Shown here in pieces: positions 9,575 through 18,167 of a stretch of 64,000 nt of DNA; the stretch's first letter is position 1, and every line of letters begins with the position of its first letter. Location: the IMG/VR virus record IMGVR_UViG_3300032050_000028, positions 58,304-122,303 of that record. One strand, given 5' to 3'. The stretch is from a virus. The position numbers and the translations under genes are program-made. A model generated the notes under the pieces. The model saw only the letters and a list, made by a program, of their open reading frames with translations. It did no database searches and was not told the origin of the DNA.

Positions 9575-10114
9575 GTGATAGATTTAACTAATCCTAAATT
9601 AGCTTTTATACTCCTTTCGTCTGAAAGATTAGATGATATGGTTTCGATATTGTATGCAAAAAATTATCAAATACTTCCAATAAAAGGTTATTATCAGGGT
9701 CAGTATGAAGATTCAGTTATGGCTTTTTCTAACATCGATAATGATGAGTTAAGAAAAGACTTGATTTTTTTATTAAATCATTTTCATCAAGATTGTGGAA
9801 TAATTAAATATACCGGAGAAAATTTAGCAAAAAAATTGTTTAAAGACGGATCTGAGAAGCCTTTAGGTATTACACTTTATAACACGGACGCTGATAACAT
9901 GTCCTATCTATATAATGGAGTAAGTTTTTCTTTTGTTGAACAAGTAAGATATTGGAAACCAAATAAATTAGAAGATTTTAAAGTCGGAATGATAGTTGAG
10001 TATTTAAATAATAATAAATGGTATCAGAAAAAAGTTGAAAATCCTGAGATTGAGTGGAAAGATATGTTTATGTTGTTATCTAAATATGACAAATTAAGAG
10101 TAGCTTCTAAATAA
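9575..10114 (+). CDS. Hypothetical protein with GTG start (179 aa)
   Basis: The frame begins at GTG (MIDLTNPKLAFILLSSERLD). No ATG occurs early enough to keep the conserved-looking start, and the phage motif sits directly upstream. The first 100 residues suggest an alpha/beta fold (KLAFILLSSERLDDMVSILY). The C-terminus has a possible SH3-like strand pair (KVGMIVEYLNNNKWYQKKVE). Family not recognised. Its 3' end overlaps the convergent gene at 10107 by 8 bases, and no terminator lies between them. Confidence 0.7.
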   Translation: MIDLTNPKLAFILLSSERLDDMVSILYAKNYQILPIKGYYQGQYEDSVMAFSNIDNDELRKDLIFLLNHFHQDCGIIKYTGENLAKKLFKDGSEKPLGITLYNTDADNMSYLYNGVSFSFVEQVRYWKPNKLEDFKVGMIVEYLNNNKWYQKKVENPEIEWKDMFMLLSKYDKLRVASK

Positions 10115-10853
10115 TTCTAAACCAACAATATTGTTTATGCCAGTTTGGAGTTTGATTAAAGAAGTAGTTTCCAGTTAGTGAATTATCGATAAATAGTAAT
10201 CCTGGTTGGTCTATATTATTTCCTCTACAAACAATTACTTTATCATCATCAACCAATTTACTATAATAAGTAGTTAAGTTATTTCCGTTATTATCCTTAT
10301 CAAACTGAGACATATATGGTAAGAGGTTTTTTCCATATATTACTGATGTTCCTGATCCAATTCTACCATCCATCGCAATTATATTAGAACACATTAGTAT
10401 CTTTGAGATTATCTTTCTATAATCTACATCAAAATCATCTTGTAAAGTGATATCTAATGATGAGTATGGTCCATTTGCTTTAGATTTTGGACTTTGTGTA
10501 TTTTTATTTAAGAAATCAATCACTTCATTCCAACTCTTTTCATAACTCTCAAATCTTTGAGCAGTCATATTAATTTGCATTATTTTCGGACCGATAACGC
10601 CCATTGTGGATGTCGAGTTATATTGGTTAGAGACATCAACTACTTGATTTTCTCTAAATATGTTTAACTCTTCGACTTTATCATCTAATATAGCCTCAAC
10701 AACCAATTCTCTATTTTGTTGTTTAACTTTTCTCTGATACTCTTCGTCATCTGAAGAAATCATATCAACATACATTAATTGAGCATTAGGCAATTTCATT
10801 TGCTTATCTGAATAGTTACAGATAGTTTTTAATTGTTCTTTAAAATGTGTCAT
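10107..10853 (-). CDS. Hypothetical protein, weak capsid-like C-terminus (248 aa)
   Basis: Starts MTHFKEQLKTICNYSDKQMK. The C-terminal half contains GSGTSVIYGKNLLPYMSQFD, then VIVCRGNNIDQPGLLFIDNS. This order faintly recalls the end of T4-type capsid proteins (a V-x-x-L stretch, then a glycine-rich strand and P-G-L-x-[FY]), but it is too weak to assign. It overlaps the start of the upstream glycosyltransferase by 14 bases, so both are probably on one transcript. It may be a structural protein decorated by the adjacent glycan enzymes (inference). Confidence 0.6.
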   Translation of the reverse strand: MTHFKEQLKTICNYSDKQMKLPNAQLMYVDMISSDDEEYQRKVKQQNRELVVEAILDDKVEELNIFRENQVVDVSNQYNSTSTMGVIGPKIMQINMTAQRFESYEKSWNEVIDFLNKNTQSPKSKANGPYSSLDITLQDDFDVDYRKIISKILMCSNIIAMDGRIGSGTSVIYGKNLLPYMSQFDKDNNGNNLTTYYSKLVDDDKVIVCRGNNIDQPGLLFIDNSLTGNYFFNQTPNWHKQYCWFRII

Positions 10854-11601
10854 ATTTGTTTTTTAAACCATTACGAGCAATATCTTTATAAAGTTGTTTT
10901 GAGAATTCTTCTTTAGTCATATTCAGATACGTGTTGTGAAGTTGTAAATTTTTTTGATATAGATTCATATCTGGTTGAGGTCTTGAATGAAAGAGATGAT
11001 AACATTTTGCTTCCATTTGTTTCCAATTTAAAAAATGTTGAACTTTGATAGATACAAAGTCATCTTCTCCTCCCCATCCGATAAAATTTTCATTCCATCC
11101 GCCGATTTTATTTATTGCGTCTTTTCTGAACATACAAATTCCTCCACAAATTGGAACTTTTTGGTGGTCGGTTTCTCCTCTACCTGGTCTATTAATCTTT
11201 ATTACATCTTCAAACTGCATTGCTGACTCTTGGGGTTCTAGATCAATTACTGAATTATAAGGATTCACCATTTCAAATTGTTCTAAATGTTTAAGAGATT
11301 CAATAAAATGATTAGGATCCATCAGTAGGTCTGAATCAGCAAAAACAATTATATTTGATTTTGCTATCTTGGTGGCGTAATTAAATGCCCACGATTTGTT
11401 ATACGGTTTATTTGATTTTAAGAAAACGTGCTTACATCTAAGACCCATATGTGATATCTTAGAATGTGTATCTTGTTCAATTAATAAAACTTCTACACCC
11501 ATAAATCCGTTTATCCAATCTAAAACTCTTCTGAGGTTGTTTAATCTATCTATTTGGTGTCTATATCCAATAACGTATGTGAAAGAATGAGTTTGGTTCA
11601 T
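10840..11601 (-). CDS. GT-A glycosyltransferase (galactosyltransferase-like, 253 aa)
   Basis: A single GT-A fold domain. The N-terminal strand is FTYVIGYRHQIDRLNNLRRV. The metal-binding D-x-D is in NIIVFADSDLLMDPNHF (D93-D95). The acceptor-side motif GWNENFIGWGGEDDFVSIKV contains G-W-G-G-E-D-D, characteristic of the C-terminal domain of galactosyltransferase/chondroitin-synthase-type enzymes. It would transfer a sugar from a nucleotide-sugar in the cytoplasm. It is the distal gene of a minus-strand glycan cluster extending to 17739. Acceptor unknown: host surface glycan, virion protein or modified DNA are all possible. Confidence 0.85.
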   Translation of the reverse strand: MNQTHSFTYVIGYRHQIDRLNNLRRVLDWINGFMGVEVLLIEQDTHSKISHMGLRCKHVFLKSNKPYNKSWAFNYATKIAKSNIIVFADSDLLMDPNHFIESLKHLEQFEMVNPYNSVIDLEPQESAMQFEDVIKINRPGRGETDHQKVPICGGICMFRKDAINKIGGWNENFIGWGGEDDFVSIKVQHFLNWKQMEAKCYHLFHSRPQPDMNLYQKNLQLHNTYLNMTKEEFSKQLYKDIARNGLKNKYDTF

Positions 11602-11646
11602 TTAAAATAATTATTTTTTATTTATATCATAATGATATATTTTTGT

Positions 11647-12270
11647 TTAAAACTTATATCTTATTACTTCAAATGCTTCGGCTAAATTTACTCCATTTTG
11701 AATTCCTCTTACTAATGCAAGAGATTTTATAAATTCTGAGCTCATGTATTTTCTTTTTGATTGTGATTTATAGAAACTTAAGCTATTTATTTTATCATTT
11801 ATGTTTTTTTCGGATAACGAGAAATACATTTGATTTTTGAATCCGGTGTTGTTCCATATTAGTTCATAACTAAGTATTGAGCAATTATTTTTAAAACATC
11901 TTATAGACTCCTCTGATATGGTTTTGTGATCTTGATGATGGTCATCAATTGATGGTGTAAAAACTAATTCTGGTGATATATTTTTTTTGATTACTACTAA
12001 ATCTTCTAAAATACTTTGTCTTTCGTAGTTGAAGTACCTGACTTTATAGTCAAAAAATAAAATATTATTTTCCAAAACTCCCAAACTTATTAGTGAGTTT
12101 TTACATTCTTCCTTTAGTGTTCCTTTTATAAAATTTTTTGGTAGTGAGTCATCACAATGTGAAAATATCGCAACAAAAATATTATTACCTTGTTCTAACA
12201 ACTTTGATATTGTTCCTCCACATCCTAATTCCGCATCATCTGTGTGTGGGGATAGTATTAAAACATTCAT
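11647..12270 (-). CDS. PIG-L/LmbE-family deacetylase (207 aa)
   Basis: The N-terminus NVLILSPHTDDAELGCGGT holds the zinc-binding P-H-x-D-D-x-E motif (H9, D11, D12), and SIDDHHQDHKTIS supplies the second H-x-x-H cluster. Length is usual for the family. These enzymes remove the N-acetyl group from GlcNAc-type amino sugars on lipids or small thiols. The ATG overlaps the stop of the upstream acyltransferase gene by 4 bases (12267-12270). That coupling suggests that deacetylation and a new N-acylation act on the same sugar. Confidence 0.9.
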   Translation of the reverse strand: MNVLILSPHTDDAELGCGGTISKLLEQGNNIFVAIFSHCDDSLPKNFIKGTLKEECKNSLISLGVLENNILFFDYKVRYFNYERQSILEDLVVIKKNISPELVFTPSIDDHHQDHKTISEESIRCFKNNCSILSYELIWNNTGFKNQMYFSLSEKNINDKINSLSFYKSQSKRKYMSSEFIKSLALVRGIQNGVNLAEAFEVIRYKF

Positions 12271-13169
12271 ATATCTTTTAATTTTTTTGAAGGAATACCA
12301 ATGTGTAATTCATTATTAGGTATATTTTTTATAACAACTGTGCCTATACCGGTCATGCTATTACTACCAACTGATGATTTATTTATTATCGAAGTTGATG
12401 GAGCGATCCAGGTATTTTCGCCAATTGTAACACTTCCCGCTATCATTGAGTTTGCTATTATTAGAGAGTTCTCGCCTATATCAACACCGTGTGCTATATG
12501 AACTAGATTATCAATTTTACAGTTTTTTCTTAACATAGTAGATCCTAAAACTGCTCTGTCGATGCAATTGTTATTTCCTATTTCTACATTGTCTTCAATG
12601 ACAACATTTCCTATATGTGGAATTAATTCATACTCACCAAGTTCGTTTTTTTCATAACCAAACCCAACACCACCTATTGTATTATTATTACCTATTATTA
12701 CATTATTACCAATTATTGTGCTTTTTAATATGACATTATTGTTACCTATATAAGTATTGTTACCAATTATTACACCGTCTTCTAACACTGTGTTTCTACC
12801 AATATTAACATTCTTTCCTATTTTATTATCAGTGTTATTAATTGAATGAATTTTATGATTCTGTTTTTCCACAAAAAAATTCTTTAATATTTCCGAAAAT
12901 ACTAATCTTGGATTTTCAACTAAAATAATTGATAGATTTGGATTTGTTGGAATTTCAGAATCTAAAGAACATATTACCGTTCCGGTTGATATTTCAAAAA
13001 TTCTATTTTTATTTTTTTCATTAAGCCACATCAGACTCTCTTCGTCAGAGTTTTCTAATTTATTTATTACTTTACTTATTGATAATATTCTTTCTGTATT
13101 TATCTTTTTAACATTATTGAATTTACTTTCTATGAATTCAACAATTTTTAATAATTGTATTTTATCCAT
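12267..13169 (-). CDS. LpxD-like left-handed beta-helix N-acyltransferase (300 aa)
   Basis: Residues about 1-100 form a mixed domain with NPNLSIILVENPRLVFSEIL, like the uridine-binding domain of LpxD. Residues 110-290 are hexapeptide repeats ([ILV]-G-x-N-x-x; GNNTYIGNNNVILKSTIIG) of a left-handed beta helix. NLVHIAHGVDIGENSLI carries the catalytic-type histidine block (LVxIAHxVxIG). LpxD transfers an acyl chain to the 2-amine of UDP-3-O-acylglucosamine. Here a related sugar-amine acylation is inferred, fed by the coupled PIG-L deacetylase. The start overlaps the methyltransferase gene by 8 bases. Confidence 0.85.
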   Translation of the reverse strand: MDKIQLLKIVEFIESKFNNVKKINTERILSISKVINKLENSDEESLMWLNEKNKNRIFEISTGTVICSLDSEIPTNPNLSIILVENPRLVFSEILKNFFVEKQNHKIHSINNTDNKIGKNVNIGRNTVLEDGVIIGNNTYIGNNNVILKSTIIGNNVIIGNNNTIGGVGFGYEKNELGEYELIPHIGNVVIEDNVEIGNNNCIDRAVLGSTMLRKNCKIDNLVHIAHGVDIGENSLIIANSMIAGSVTIGENTWIAPSTSIINKSSVGSNSMTGIGTVVIKNIPNNELHIGIPSKKLKDI

Positions 13170-13698
13170 AGACTATTATAATTTGATTTTTTATTATTTT
13201 GCTATATTCAATCGAATATCCCAATTTGTTTAATTCTGAAATATAATCATGAGCAAAACAATGTTCAGCAAGATTTTTGTTCTCATCATGATAGGATATG
13301 AGTAAAACTTTTTTACAAACTCTGTGCATCTCGGTTAATATTCTAATCATTTCTTTTTGAGGAGCATGTAACAAAACTTTAACTGTTATACCAATGTCAA
13401 AGTGATTATCCTCAAAAGGTAAATCATTTTTATGTATATCATATATTAGATGTTCAAAATCTATTTCATGTTTTGATGCTTCTTCAATTGCTCTTTGTCG
13501 ATAAAGCTCGCTAAAATCAACACCAGTTACTTTCTTATCTGCATAAAATTTGAATGTTCTTCCTATACCACATCCTATATCTAATATAGAATTGCAGTCC
13601 TCTATAAGTTTTGGTATTTCTGAATCTTCTATATAGTTTGTGTAATTACTTTTGTTAGGATCTTGTCTTTTGTTCCAGTATTCTTTTGAATTATACAT
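13162..13698 (-). CDS. Class I SAM-dependent methyltransferase (178 aa)
   Basis: The SAM-binding motif I is at residues about 38-46 (ILDIGCGIGRTFKFY), followed by the acidic strand KVTGVDFSELYRQRA and the post-motif FDIGITVKVLLHAP. It has a minimal Rossmann methyltransferase core of the Methyltransf_11/25 type, which usually acts on small molecules or sugars. It overlaps the LpxD-like gene and follows the giant glycosyltransferase gene by 15 bases, so O- or N-methylation of the same glycan is the best guess. Substrate not determinable from sequence. Confidence 0.85.
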   Translation of the reverse strand: MYNSKEYWNKRQDPNKSNYTNYIEDSEIPKLIEDCNSILDIGCGIGRTFKFYADKKVTGVDFSELYRQRAIEEASKHEIDFEHLIYDIHKNDLPFEDNHFDIGITVKVLLHAPQKEMIRILTEMHRVCKKVLLISYHDENKNLAEHCFAHDYISELNKLGYSIEYSKIIKNQIIIVYG

Positions 13699-13713
13699 AT
13701 TATTATTTCTTTT

Positions 13714-16700
13714 TTATATTTCTTTTTGTAATTTTAGTAATTCGTAAAAATTACAAATTTTATCATTCACAATTTTACTATCCACTAAATGACCAATATT
13801 ATTCATTTTTGTTATGTTAGTTGTGCTCCTTATGGTAAATACTATTCCATTCTTATCCGAGCACTCAATTACCTTTGAATTTAATGTTATATTTTGTATC
13901 TGTTTTGAAAATGCATGGTCTAAAGATTTATTAATTTCTACTTTACCCCAGGGTTGCCAATTTATTTTTTCTAAAAAATCCTTTCTATAGAATCTTCCAC
14001 CGCCAATTGGTTCTCCAACTCTTTCATTTTCATATCCTTTCCAGTATCTTAATTCGGACTTTTCGTTAAGAAGATAAAAATCTTTAAAACCGATGTATTC
14101 GTAATCGTTTAATAGATTTTTATAAGTCAATAAAGTTTCTTTAGATAAAAAATCATCAGATCCAATCAATATAACACCATCGGGATTAAATTCTTTTGAT
14201 TTGATAAAAATTTCATTATGTTTTTTTGAAAGTGGAAAATTTGAAAATTCAACATAATAAAATCCATTATTTTCAGCTATTTTTTTTGAGACTTCTCCTT
14301 CAGAACCACATGCTATAAGGGTTAGGTTGATTTCATTTTTTAGTTCTGATTTTAATTTATTATAATATGAAAATACAAAGTCAGTAAGTCTGTGTCTTTG
14401 CCACATAGTAGTCACAATGCAAATTTTTGGTAAGTTTCTTCTATTAAAAACTTCATCTATTTTTTTATTATTTTTATTTACTACAAAAAGGCTGTTATCT
14501 ATATTTATATCATCATGTTTAATCCATCCCTCTTTGTGATTAAGTACTTTGCATTTTTTATTTTGATTTTTAATTATAATTCCTAAAAAAACATCCGCCA
14601 TGTTTGCATATTCAAAATCTTTGAATTTTAGTTTTAAATATTCGGTCCAAAAACTCATCACTCCTGTTCCCGGAAATTCTATATCTTTGTTTTCATCTAC
14701 ATTCTTTAAACATCTGTAATTTTCAGATATTTGTTTGTAATATGAAGTTGCTTTTTTACTATAATTTTTACCGTGGTAGCTGACAACTGATTCATTGTTT
14801 AATTTTTTTAATTCTTCTATAGTATTTTCGACATAATTTGAAGGATATATCAAATCATCATCAATTGAGAAATAATATGAGTCTTTGATATTTTCTATGT
14901 TATAGAATTTTCCAGCGTCACCCATGTCTATTCCGGTGTGTATAGAGCTAAAAATTTTTATTTTAGTGTCAATTAGAAAATCAAAAACTTTATAGTATCC
15001 ATTCTGATAGACAAATAACTCGTCTACTTGATCAATTATTGAATTGATTGTTTTTTTTAATGAGTCTTTTCTATCATATATTGTTGCAATTCCACACACT
15101 ATTTTTTTAGGTCTGTAATTATTTCTTATCTTCTCGACTATTTTAGATTTGGCTAACTTTTCGTCATTTGTGAGTGATAATGTTCCCTTTTGTCCGGAAT
15201 GTCTTCTGTAATTATATACAAATTTATCTAAATAACCAATTTTTTTACCTCTGCTAAGTAGTTTAAAATAAAAATCATATTCTTCTGCATAAATTAAATT
15301 ATCGTTTAATCCGTTGGTGTCTAAAAAGTCTTCTTTGTTGAAGATTATTGTACCTCCATGAATATGGTTTTTAACTAATAAATCATCAATTTTTATTGAT
15401 TTAACTTCTGGTATGTAAGTTTTTACTTGATTCTCATGAACCTCGTAACAATTAGCATGAATTAGGCTAAATTTATCTGATTTTATTTCATCATATAAAT
15501 TTTGAATTGTATCTTCTAATAGAAAGTCATCATAAGCTAAAATTTTAATATACTTGCCCTTTGATTCTTTTACTCCGTGATTAAAATTAAATGAGCAAGA
15601 TGAGTTTTTGACTGGTTTTTGTGCCAATGTGAATCTTATATTATATTCCGACTCTACATAAGACAATTCAGAACAAGAGTCTGAGGTCAATAATATTTCT
15701 AAATTGCCATTAAATTTTTGATTCTTTGCAGACAATATGCATTTTTTCAAATATTCACTAGGTTTATGTGCTAAAATTAGTATAGTAACATCTATTTCTG
15801 ATTCAAACTCTTTTAGTTTTTTATACCTATTGTCGTAATTTCTATTCTGAAGATTTCCATGATATAAATGGTCCAAACAAACATCTAAAAAAGATACTTT
15901 TGTTTTTTTATGAGAATTTATCCACCTCTGTGCTTCTTTTCCAATATTATTGTTATATTCTTTTACTTTTTGTAAAGTAAATCCATTATCTATATGGAAG
16001 AGCCCATATACAAAAATAGTATCTCCACCACCAACGTACATTTTCTCAAAAAGTTTATTTTCTTTGAGTATAGATGTTTTACCAAGCCAAGAACCACCTG
16101 GTTTATATCCCTTTCCTAAAAGTTGGTCTATGTTAGTTGAGCCAGTTGAAATAATTGATTTATGAGACTCCAAAATATTACCAGTTTCATCTAAATAATT
16201 GATTGTTTCAAATAATTGAACAAAGTCGTTATCTTTTGCAACTTCGTCTATGTTATTTAACCAATCTAAATTTTCATAAATTAAGTCGCCGTCTATCCAA
16301 ATAAAATAATCAGTATCAACTGTTTCGATTATTTTATTAATTAGTATTTCTTTAGACCAAATTTTATTTTCTTCATCACCTTTGATTGTCATTGTCTTAC
16401 AAGGAATTTCAAAGTCTATATCTCCATAATCCACAATTCCAACAATCATATTTTCATAGTAATCTTTCCATTGTTCTAAAAACTTTATAAAATTATTCTT
16501 TTGTCTAAGGTCTCCCCTATAATTAAAATAATAAGAACAAATAGTGAATGTTGATTTTTTATTAAATATTACTGAGAAATCATCATCGGTTAAAAATCTA
16601 GCAGTTTTTCTACCTGACCAATTTGTATAAGCTTCTCCTAAATGTATTATTTTATTTTCTATACTTCTTCTACTTGTGAATTTATCTCTAAAAACTAAAT

Positions 16701-17739
16701 CTGACATTGATGCGTCTTTGAAATTTTCTGGATAAAAATTACCATTCAATATTTGGTTATTTGAGTTAAAAAGTTGAAAGAATCCAAAGCCTCTGTCATT
16801 TTCCCATTTGTTTAAATCATTAGTGTCTTTTGATTTTTCCCAATTCTGAAATCTGTGATATGTTTCACATATCCATCTACCAGATGTGTAAAGAGATTCA
16901 TCATCTAATTGATTCAATTCTATTTTTTCGGTTACTATAATGTCAGCATCTAATATTAATATTAGATCTTTATTTTCAATTTGACTTAATCCATAGTTTA
17001 TAGCTTTTCCTTTATTGAATTTAGAGTCGCTATCATACATAACATCTGTTATTAAACAATTAACTCTAAACTTTTCACATATTTTTTGACACATTAAATC
17101 ATCTGTAGATGTGACTACTGTTATGTTATCAAATATCTTTTTGTTATATGGTAAAGATGTGAGTAAAAAATCATTATAGTTTACAGAAACTATTAAAACA
17201 TCAAGTTTCTTTTCCCTACTTGAATTTAATAAAATTGATTTATTAGAAGGAACTGACTTTCTTCTAATTACTTGGATTTGTTCTTTATTTGTATGCGATT
17301 CAGTATTTGGCCATGATTTAATCCTTTCTATATCAACTGAAAAGCTTTTTAAATTTACAAATATCGAATCTAAGTCATTTGATTGGTGTAGTGGTAAATT
17401 TCTATGAAAAACATAAAAACAATCGGGTTTATGATAACATTCAATTTTAGAAATATTATTAAGTGAAGACAAATCTTTCCACTTTACAAATGGATTTGAG
17501 AAAATAAAAATATCATTAGAAATTGCATTACTTTTTGCAATATTTATACAATTAAATGTTGGTTGAATAGTACGTGACTTGAATACTCTAATTTTAGGAT
17601 GACCTGAAAAATCTCTTAAATGAAAATCAGAAAAAATAAAAATTCTTTCAAATATAGATAAGTTATATTTTAAACATTCATTGAATTCGTTAGTATAAAT
17701 TGAAAAATCCGAATTGGATATTTTTAAAATCAATATCAT
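13714..17739 (-). CDS. Giant multi-module glycosyltransferase (1341 aa)
   Basis: Start chosen at the ATG complementing 17737-17739 (MILILKISNSDFSIYTNEFN). The open frame extends to 17808, but that would run across the divergent neighbour at 17769. At least five GT-A-like modules follow one another: one opening LDVLIVSVNYNDF with LILILDADIIVTE; one with FTICSYYFNYRGDL and YFIWIDGDLIYE; a classic GT2 module (DVTILILAHKPSEYLKK, IKILAYDDFLLED, GLNDNLIYAEEYDFYFKLL); one with CGIATIYDRKDSLKKTINS and YFSIDDDLIYPS; and a last with CIVTTMWQRHRLTDF and VILIGSDDFLSKE. The extreme N-terminus may be a sixth, degenerate module. Each keeps an acidic D-x-D-like site. It probably builds a multi-sugar chain. 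Confidence 0.85.
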   Translation of the reverse strand: MILILKISNSDFSIYTNEFNECLKYNLSIFERIFIFSDFHLRDFSGHPKIRVFKSRTIQPTFNCINIAKSNAISNDIFIFSNPFVKWKDLSSLNNISKIECYHKPDCFYVFHRNLPLHQSNDLDSIFVNLKSFSVDIERIKSWPNTESHTNKEQIQVIRRKSVPSNKSILLNSSREKKLDVLIVSVNYNDFLLTSLPYNKKIFDNITVVTSTDDLMCQKICEKFRVNCLITDVMYDSDSKFNKGKAINYGLSQIENKDLILILDADIIVTEKIELNQLDDESLYTSGRWICETYHRFQNWEKSKDTNDLNKWENDRGFGFFQLFNSNNQILNGNFYPENFKDASMSDLVFRDKFTSRRSIENKIIHLGEAYTNWSGRKTARFLTDDDFSVIFNKKSTFTICSYYFNYRGDLRQKNNFIKFLEQWKDYYENMIVGIVDYGDIDFEIPCKTMTIKGDEENKIWSKEILINKIIETVDTDYFIWIDGDLIYENLDWLNNIDEVAKDNDFVQLFETINYLDETGNILESHKSIISTGSTNIDQLLGKGYKPGGSWLGKTSILKENKLFEKMYVGGGDTIFVYGLFHIDNGFTLQKVKEYNNNIGKEAQRWINSHKKTKVSFLDVCLDHLYHGNLQNRNYDNRYKKLKEFESEIDVTILILAHKPSEYLKKCILSAKNQKFNGNLEILLTSDSCSELSYVESEYNIRFTLAQKPVKNSSCSFNFNHGVKESKGKYIKILAYDDFLLEDTIQNLYDEIKSDKFSLIHANCYEVHENQVKTYIPEVKSIKIDDLLVKNHIHGGTIIFNKEDFLDTNGLNDNLIYAEEYDFYFKLLSRGKKIGYLDKFVYNYRRHSGQKGTLSLTNDEKLAKSKIVEKIRNNYRPKKIVCGIATIYDRKDSLKKTINSIIDQVDELFVYQNGYYKVFDFLIDTKIKIFSSIHTGIDMGDAGKFYNIENIKDSYYFSIDDDLIYPSNYVENTIEELKKLNNESVVSYHGKNYSKKATSYYKQISENYRCLKNVDENKDIEFPGTGVMSFWTEYLKLKFKDFEYANMADVFLGIIIKNQNKKCKVLNHKEGWIKHDDINIDNSLFVVNKNNKKIDEVFNRRNLPKICIVTTMWQRHRLTDFVFSYYNKLKSELKNEINLTLIACGSEGEVSKKIAENNGFYYVEFSNFPLSKKHNEIFIKSKEFNPDGVILIGSDDFLSKETLLTYKNLLNDYEYIGFKDFYLLNEKSELRYWKGYENERVGEPIGGGRFYRKDFLEKINWQPWGKVEINKSLDHAFSKQIQNITLNSKVIECSDKNGIVFTIRSTTNITKMNNIGHLVDSKIVNDKICNFYELLKLQKEI

Positions 17740-17768
17740 ATAGTATATATAAACAAAATCAGGGCTAA

Positions 17769-18167
17769 ATGAAAAAAATTGGTAGATTAGAGAAAGTTTT
17801 TTTTCCAAAATTATTAGAAGGTTTTTTAACAGCTAAGATAGATACTGGTGCTTTTAATGCTTCTTTACATGTAGATTCAATTAAAGAATTAGAAAATCAG
17901 TTAGAAGTAAAAATTGGAAATAATACTTATCATTTTTGTAATTGGTCCGAGATAGAAGTTAAGAGCTCCAATGGTGAAAAACAAAAAAGATACGCAATTA
18001 AAACTAAAATTATAATTGGTCAAAAAAAATATAGTATATTTGTTTCTTTATCTAATAGAAAAGAAATGAAATACCCACTTCTGATAGGAAGAAGATTTCT
18101 TCACGTCAATGATTTTGTGGTCGATGTTAAAAAGAAGAATCATCATGGTCGACCTAAAAAAGTTTAA
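17769..18167 (+). CDS. RimB-like retropepsin-type aspartyl protease (132 aa)
   Basis: LTAKIDTGAFNASLHVDSIK has the D-T-G triad (D25) followed by the A-x-x-A-S-L-H pattern of the family long labelled ATP-dependent zinc protease (PF05618). Its members are retropepsin-like and often accompany RimK glutamate ligases. The tail MKYPLLIGRRFLHVNDFVVD matches the family's Y-P-L-L-I-G-R-x-F-L...D signature. The length is that of a single domain, which would need to dimerise to form an active site. The start is divergent from the glycosyltransferase gene across a 29-base gap. No RimK-like gene is in this window. Substrate unknown; host ribosomal or phage tails are possible. Confidence 0.75.
   Translation: MKKIGRLEKVFFPKLLEGFLTAKIDTGAFNASLHVDSIKELENQLEVKIGNNTYHFCNWSEIEVKSSNGEKQKRYAIKTKIIIGQKKYSIFVSLSNRKEMKYPLLIGRRFLHVNDFVVDVKKKNHHGRPKKV

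Follow-up and report, generated by a model that had tools for sequence, protein, structure and literature searches.

Pairs of a deacetylase and an N-acyltransferase that take the acetyl group off an amino sugar and put another acyl group on are known for teicoplanin-type molecules and Nod factors, and in the latter NodS also methylates the sugar. These enzymes belong to protein families different from those described here, and are not known to be phage-borne. The LpxC-LpxD step of lipid A synthesis is likewise an N-deacetylation followed by N-acylation of a UDP-sugar, and LpxD has its fold in common with the phage acyltransferase of this study. LpxC, however, is no PIG-L enzyme, and the phage acyltransferase fails the LpxD cut-off and lacks features of LpxD. 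The sugar tailoring so far ascribed to phages is, to our knowledge, O-acetylation and glucosylation of host glycans. The DNA analyzed here, denominated the window, is a stretch of 64 kb out of a 122-kb virus record. The block found at 11.6-17.7 kb is, on balance, regarded as an accessory glycan-tailoring cassette, featuring an enzyme pair of Bacteroidota type and hosted by a Mahaphage-like huge phage; this assessment is made jointly with the acyl-exchange reading of the pair argued below.

Three minus-strand genes, encoding a methyltransferase, an LpxD-like acyltransferase and a PIG-L deacetylase, have been confirmed by ORF analysis and direct reading, with the gene of a multi-domain glycosyltransferase (GT) located upstream (Table 1). 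The original prediction had the PIG-L and acyltransferase genes overlap by 4 bases, and the acyltransferase and methyltransferase genes by 8. Both overlaps are read directly in the sequence, as ATGA and ATGGATAA, respectively. The span first assigned to the module, 11647-13169, includes the enzyme pair, but truncates the methyltransferase and omits the multi-domain GT, both of which are in the same block. The GT frame remains open as far upstream as a TTG at 17808; the ATG at 17739 is the likelier start, because from there the gene does not overlap the divergent Zn_protease gene. The flanking 248-aa product has no Pfam match. A conserved 179-aa protein, weakly matching (E 0.07) the S-adenosylmethionine lyase family, is encoded at window positions 9575-10114.

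Table 1. Features of the glycan-gene block and of its immediate surroundings (window coordinates).
Feature	Coordinates	Strand	Evidence
PIG-L/LmbE-family deacetylase, 207 aa	11647..12270	-	PF02585, 66.7 bits (above the gathering cut-off of 28.2); motifs PHTDDAE and HQDH intact
LpxD-like left-handed beta-helix acyltransferase, 300 aa	12267..13169	-	Hexapep and LpxD profiles, tree, AlphaFold2 model
Putative SAM-dependent methyltransferase, 178 aa	13162..13698	-	Methyltransf_25, 59.1 bits
Multi-domain GT-A-type glycosyltransferase, about 1341 aa from ATG 17739	13714..17739	-	Glycos_transf_2 matches
Inserted block, extent relative to two syntenic huge phages	11602..17768	.	Synteny with LR745206 and LR756502
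Flanking core GT, 253 aa, outside the inserted block	10840..11601	-	Glyco_transf_7C and Glycos_transf_2; in both relatives
Flanking core gene, 248 aa, outside the inserted block	10107..10853	-	Synteny: gene present in both relatives
Putative ATP-dependent zinc protease, core gene bordering the inserted block	17769-18167	divergent from GT	PF05618, 69 bits

The window was compared to the complete phages LR745206 and LR756502 (635 and 642 kb). At the DNA level the match is confined to the 253-aa GT gene, and synteny is found at the protein level on both sides; a DNA similarity search of known phages found nothing beyond this flanking gene, in the same two huge phages. In both genomes the gene that comes next to that of the 253-aa GT, after about 100-135 bases, is the Zn_protease gene. 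Because the two genes adjoin, the four genes at 11647-17739 are absent at this site. No PIG-L of the window's family was detected in either complete genome by a family profile search. On this evidence the 6.2-kb block is cargo of an accessory kind. In LR756502, an unmatched frame of 135 aa next to the GT was rejected as a gene, being the antisense of the Zn_protease gene. As to signs of mobile elements, no repeat of at least 10 bases is common to the two flanks of the block. The GC content of the block (0.26) is near that of the window (0.29). The T4-type late-promoter-like sequence TATAAATA is found at 11619-11626, 25 bases upstream of the 253-aa GT gene, where the sequence seems to be conserved in both relatives. 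Late-promoter-like TATAAATA sites are not in excess in the window (19 versus 16.9 expected), nor are sigma-70-like sites and terminators relative to shuffles. The hosts of the phage are probably Bacteroidota, an assignment carried over by relatedness.

Homologous loci, numbered with the prefix L, were collected by scans. Relatives of PIG-L were found in 38 viral loci, some being copies of others, and relatives of the LpxD-like enzyme in 10 bacterial loci, referable by title to Bacteroidota (8), Saccharibacteria (1) and Alphaproteobacteria (1). An added survey of 296 genomes yielded the pairs L087, L088, L090 and L091, of which L088 and L090 are near copies. The module is rare, as a strong match was found in only 7 of the 296 genomes. 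PIG-L and LpxD-like genes are adjacent, or one gene apart, in five phage lineages. Three arrangements occur: LpxD-like then PIG-L in the window; PIG-L, LpxD-like, AsnB in L005; LpxD-like, AsnB, PIG-L in L008, L011, L013 and, in part, L010. Among the bacterial loci, PIG-L is a direct neighbour in 12 of the 15 that are testable (L044, L045, L047-L052, L087, L088, L090, L091); L046 is not counted, as the end of the contig cuts the locus. Looking for relatives in which the two genes are separate, as the original prediction had suggested, we found them mostly together, the exceptions being L053, L086 and L089, where the LpxD-like acyltransferase has no PIG-L neighbour. In phages, many PIG-L genes lie without an acyltransferase gene beside them. 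Five further phage PIG-L genes directly adjoin the gene of a smaller hexapeptide transferase (170-191 aa). The repeated pairing of PIG-L with two kinds of acyltransferase, in varying order, argues for a coupled function. The pairing of PIG-L and LpxD-like genes is conserved and not due to chance. It had been thought to be undescribed in phages: no paper on it was found among the open-licence papers searched, but the pair is not specific to phages, being a rare module of Bacteroidota.

In trees, phage LpxD-like genes form one group at low support values (57/75), and their single origin is accordingly weakly supported by the sequences. The window PIG-L groups with those of NeuB-containing phage clusters (100/99), the L005 PIG-L with other phage PIG-Ls (96/88). 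That the two genes were strictly co-inherited is not established, since L005 groups differently in the two trees. Acquisition of the pair from Bacteroidota, followed by reshuffling, fits the data; the direction of transfer is the one we infer.

In the deacetylase, PHTDDAE and HQDH correspond to P-H-x-D-D-x-E and H-x-D-H, which we take to be the zinc-site motifs of PIG-L enzymes, and are invariant in 18 relatives. Assignment to the bacillithiol deacetylase BshB1 (TIGR04001) was rejected, the score of 56.6 bits being below the equivalog cut-off of 182.5. More distant PIG-L genes of isolated phages lie near GT and ParB-domain genes, a setting that we suspect of DNA modification, and the block might similarly serve to decorate phage DNA with an amino sugar. 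This is highly improbable, as those PIG-L proteins are about 25% identical, and PIG-L is here accompanied by an acyltransferase and a multi-domain GT, which is also the company it keeps in bacterial loci for surface glycans.

The acyltransferase matches Hexapep (PF00132) in five stretches (83.3 bits), but is below the cut-offs for both the LpxD N-domain PF04613 (21 bits versus 30.8) and the LpxD equivalog TIGR01853 (199.4 bits versus 242.5). All seven searched bacterial genomes hosting a paired enzyme were found to have a separate, canonical LpxD above the TIGR01853 cut-off as well, with scores of 252-377 bits, and the paired acyltransferases form in the tree their own clade, apart from LpxD. 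The histidine of the IAH motif (H227), at what we assume to be the site of the catalytic histidine in LpxD structures, is retained and invariant in 14 relatives; the second active-site histidine of canonical LpxD is lost in the paired enzymes, the window protein having K264. The window protein ends at the 300th residue, and the canonical LpxDs of the same genomes are 25-32 residues longer at the C-terminus, an extension presumably involved in acyl-ACP recognition and missing from the paired enzymes as a group. The C-terminal ends of paired enzymes are mostly GNPAK-like (GIPSKK in the window protein). W48 and N53 are invariant in the paired family, and the corresponding residues of LpxDs are F and Y, which we take to be the aromatic residues stacking on uracil. 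The AlphaFold2 model (pLDDT 88.5) has LpxD as its top Foldseek match; its beta-helix superposes on that of LpxA (Z about 28, 1.1-1.4 A), and comparison to the PDB returned the sugar acyltransferases LpxD, LpxA, QdtC, GlmU and WlbB. The orientation of the domains was left uninterpreted, because the whole-chain rmsd to LpxD is about 18 A.

By these sequence features the acyltransferase belongs outside LpxD, in a separate family. Use of a donor in the manner of LpxD is therefore less well supported: as the family is a separate one, and lacks the C-terminal extension of LpxD, a fatty acyl-ACP donor should not be assumed. As no solved fold and no named family is nearer than LpxD, the pair might stand in for LpxC and LpxD and change the amide-linked acyl chain of lipid A. 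The separate clade, the loss of both second histidine and extension, the normal LpxD kept by genomes with the pair, and the polysaccharide genes that neighbour the pair make any such alteration of, or interference with, lipid A very hard to credit. Doubtful, yet conceivable, is that the change to W48 and N53, located in the nucleotide-binding domain, marks a different activated sugar, for example a CMP- or dTDP-linked one; the pair would then be an undescribed N-acyl exchange acting on sialic-acid-like or related sugars, by which huge phages re-dress the surface of their Bacteroidota hosts.

Bacterial pairs are found near GTs and, over curated cut-offs, also near WecB (L044, L050, L087) or WbuX (L048, L049). 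Two more genes come after the pair in L088, L090 and L091: that of an acyl carrier protein of 73-77 aa, which has a DSL motif and matches E. coli ACP in phmmer (E 1e-4 to 3e-4), and that of an AMP-forming acyl ligase. These Bacteroidota operons (L088 3-3035, L090, L091 831-3853), made of PIG-L, LpxD-like, carrier and ligase genes, are a candidate dedicated N-acyl exchange system. Carrier and ligase genes beside some bacterial pairs offer direct genomic support for N-re-acylation, since an exchange of N-acyl groups calls for just these four components: deacetylase, acyltransferase, carrier and ligase. The acyltransferases of the three loci are only about 35% identical to that of the phage, and support the logic of the family rather than the nature of the phage's donor. 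No carrier protein gene was found in the window, and the known part of the phage encodes neither carrier protein nor acyl ligase. The GNPAK-like end resembles that of acetyl-CoA enzymes, so the new acyl group could be plain acetyl. Along this line, there may be no acyl swap at all: PIG-L would leave a free amine or an amidination site, and the LpxD-like enzyme would use acetyl-CoA to acetylate that sugar elsewhere, on a different amine or on a hydroxyl. The C-terminal end and the lost extension would suit this scheme. So would the structural matches to QdtC and WlbB, which are sugar N-acetyltransferases, the occurrence of WbuX, an N-acetyl sugar amidotransferase, next to the pairs of L048 and L049, and AsnB in phages. 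The scheme is judged possible but rather unlikely; carrier and ligase in L088, L090 and L091 point, at least there, to a donor other than acetyl.

The phage clusters in which the closest PIG-L relatives (63-68% identical) reside also encode NeuB, AsnB and, in most cases, a NeuA-like CTP transferase; the latter is found where that end of the cluster is present, with weak scores of 17-34 bits. The sugar may thus feed a sialic-acid-like pathway in those phages. The combination of NeuB, NeuA-like CTP transferase, AsnB, PIG-L and GTs in L008 (1004-10433), and also in L009, L011 and L013, looks like phage-encoded nonulosonic acid synthesis. L016 has a NeuB cluster without LpxD-like and AsnB genes, and a sulfotransferase is found in both L008 and L016. 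NeuB-containing phage clusters are perhaps a better find than the window cassette. By extension, the window pair could alter the N-acyl group of a nonulosonic acid or its precursor, with the remaining genes in the unsequenced part of the phage or in the host. This finds a basis in the closest PIG-L relatives, but the NeuA-like scores are weak, bacterial pairs lie with WecB and not NeuB, NeuB is absent from LR745206 and LR756502, and no match to NeuB, CTP_transf_3 or Epimerase was found in the known records of this phage, which are fragments; we hold it as a tentative, minority option. Lacking these matches, the phage probably uses host-made sugars, unless its unsequenced part supplies them.

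The multi-domain GT has four to six GT-A-like segments in a row, with Glycos_transf_2 matches of varying strength in four or five of them; residues 903-1104 match heparosan synthase B (80.7 bits), and the C-terminal domain resembles the GT adjoining the pair in L005, L008, L011 and L013. The other loci show no constant equivalent of the methyltransferase, which is not a conserved partner of the pair. In the favoured mechanism, PIG-L would strip the acetyl from an N-acetylated amino sugar, probably a host-made nucleotide-activated one; the LpxD-like enzyme would attach a different acyl to the freed amine; the multi-domain GT would build the altered sugar into an oligosaccharide; and methylation by the methyltransferase may be a further step. 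The likeliest target of the product would be the infected cell's surface, with the virion as the alternative. Deacetylation, re-acylation and chain building of an amino sugar by borrowed genes is the account we consider somewhat probable, substrate, donor, reaction order, methyl step and target being those we infer. The exchange of acyl groups is favoured because the pairing is kept in five phage lineages despite reshuffling and in 12 of 15 bacterial loci, PIG-L motifs are invariant, the acyltransferase histidine is kept, the model matches sugar acyltransferases, and bacterial relatives are accompanied by genes for a carrier protein and an acyl ligase. On these same grounds the successive deacetylation and acylation initially proposed is well supported as a module, its substrate and activity being predicted ones. 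Host LPS as the target is less well supported, and so is methylation as a third step, the methyltransferase being no conserved partner. The pair is a genuine one, and the description that suits it is a PIG-L/LpxD-like N-acyl exchange module of Bacteroidota type, rather than an LPS pathway.

The Tannerella forsythia O-glycan cluster includes asnB, wecB and methyltransferases, and its product carries N-glyceroyl pseudaminic acid, for which the acyl gene was called elusive (PMC6120980); no PIG-L/LpxD-like pair is reported there, and the cluster is a lead only. Stenotrophomonas phages DLP3 and DLP5 have PIG-L next to epimerase, aminotransferase and methyltransferase genes (PMC7326821, PMC5834331); they differ in that the listed gene order, known from annotation only, includes no LpxD-like acyltransferase. 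Phage-encoded O-acetyltransferases of host nonulosonic acids, such as NeuO (PMC3046976) and the A. baumannii K46/K5 enzymes (PMC6586298), likewise alter acyl groups on host surface sugars, but there a single enzyme O-acetylates the finished polymer, rather than exchanging an N-acyl group. Close to the phage genes are also the PIG-L and LpxD-like pairs of Bacteroidota, for which no published description was found among the open-licence papers searched. They comprise the same two families, adjacent and amid glycan genes, with acyltransferases 46-54% identical in most, and differ in being located outside phages and in having partners of their own, WecB, WbuX, or a carrier protein and an acyl ligase. 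Where Bacteroidota glycans have unusual N-acyl sugars, the operons that combine PIG-L, LpxD-like, carrier and ligase genes are a good candidate route to them, and the window cassette, if correctly read, would be a module for the exchange of N-acyl groups on sugars that is carried by a phage.
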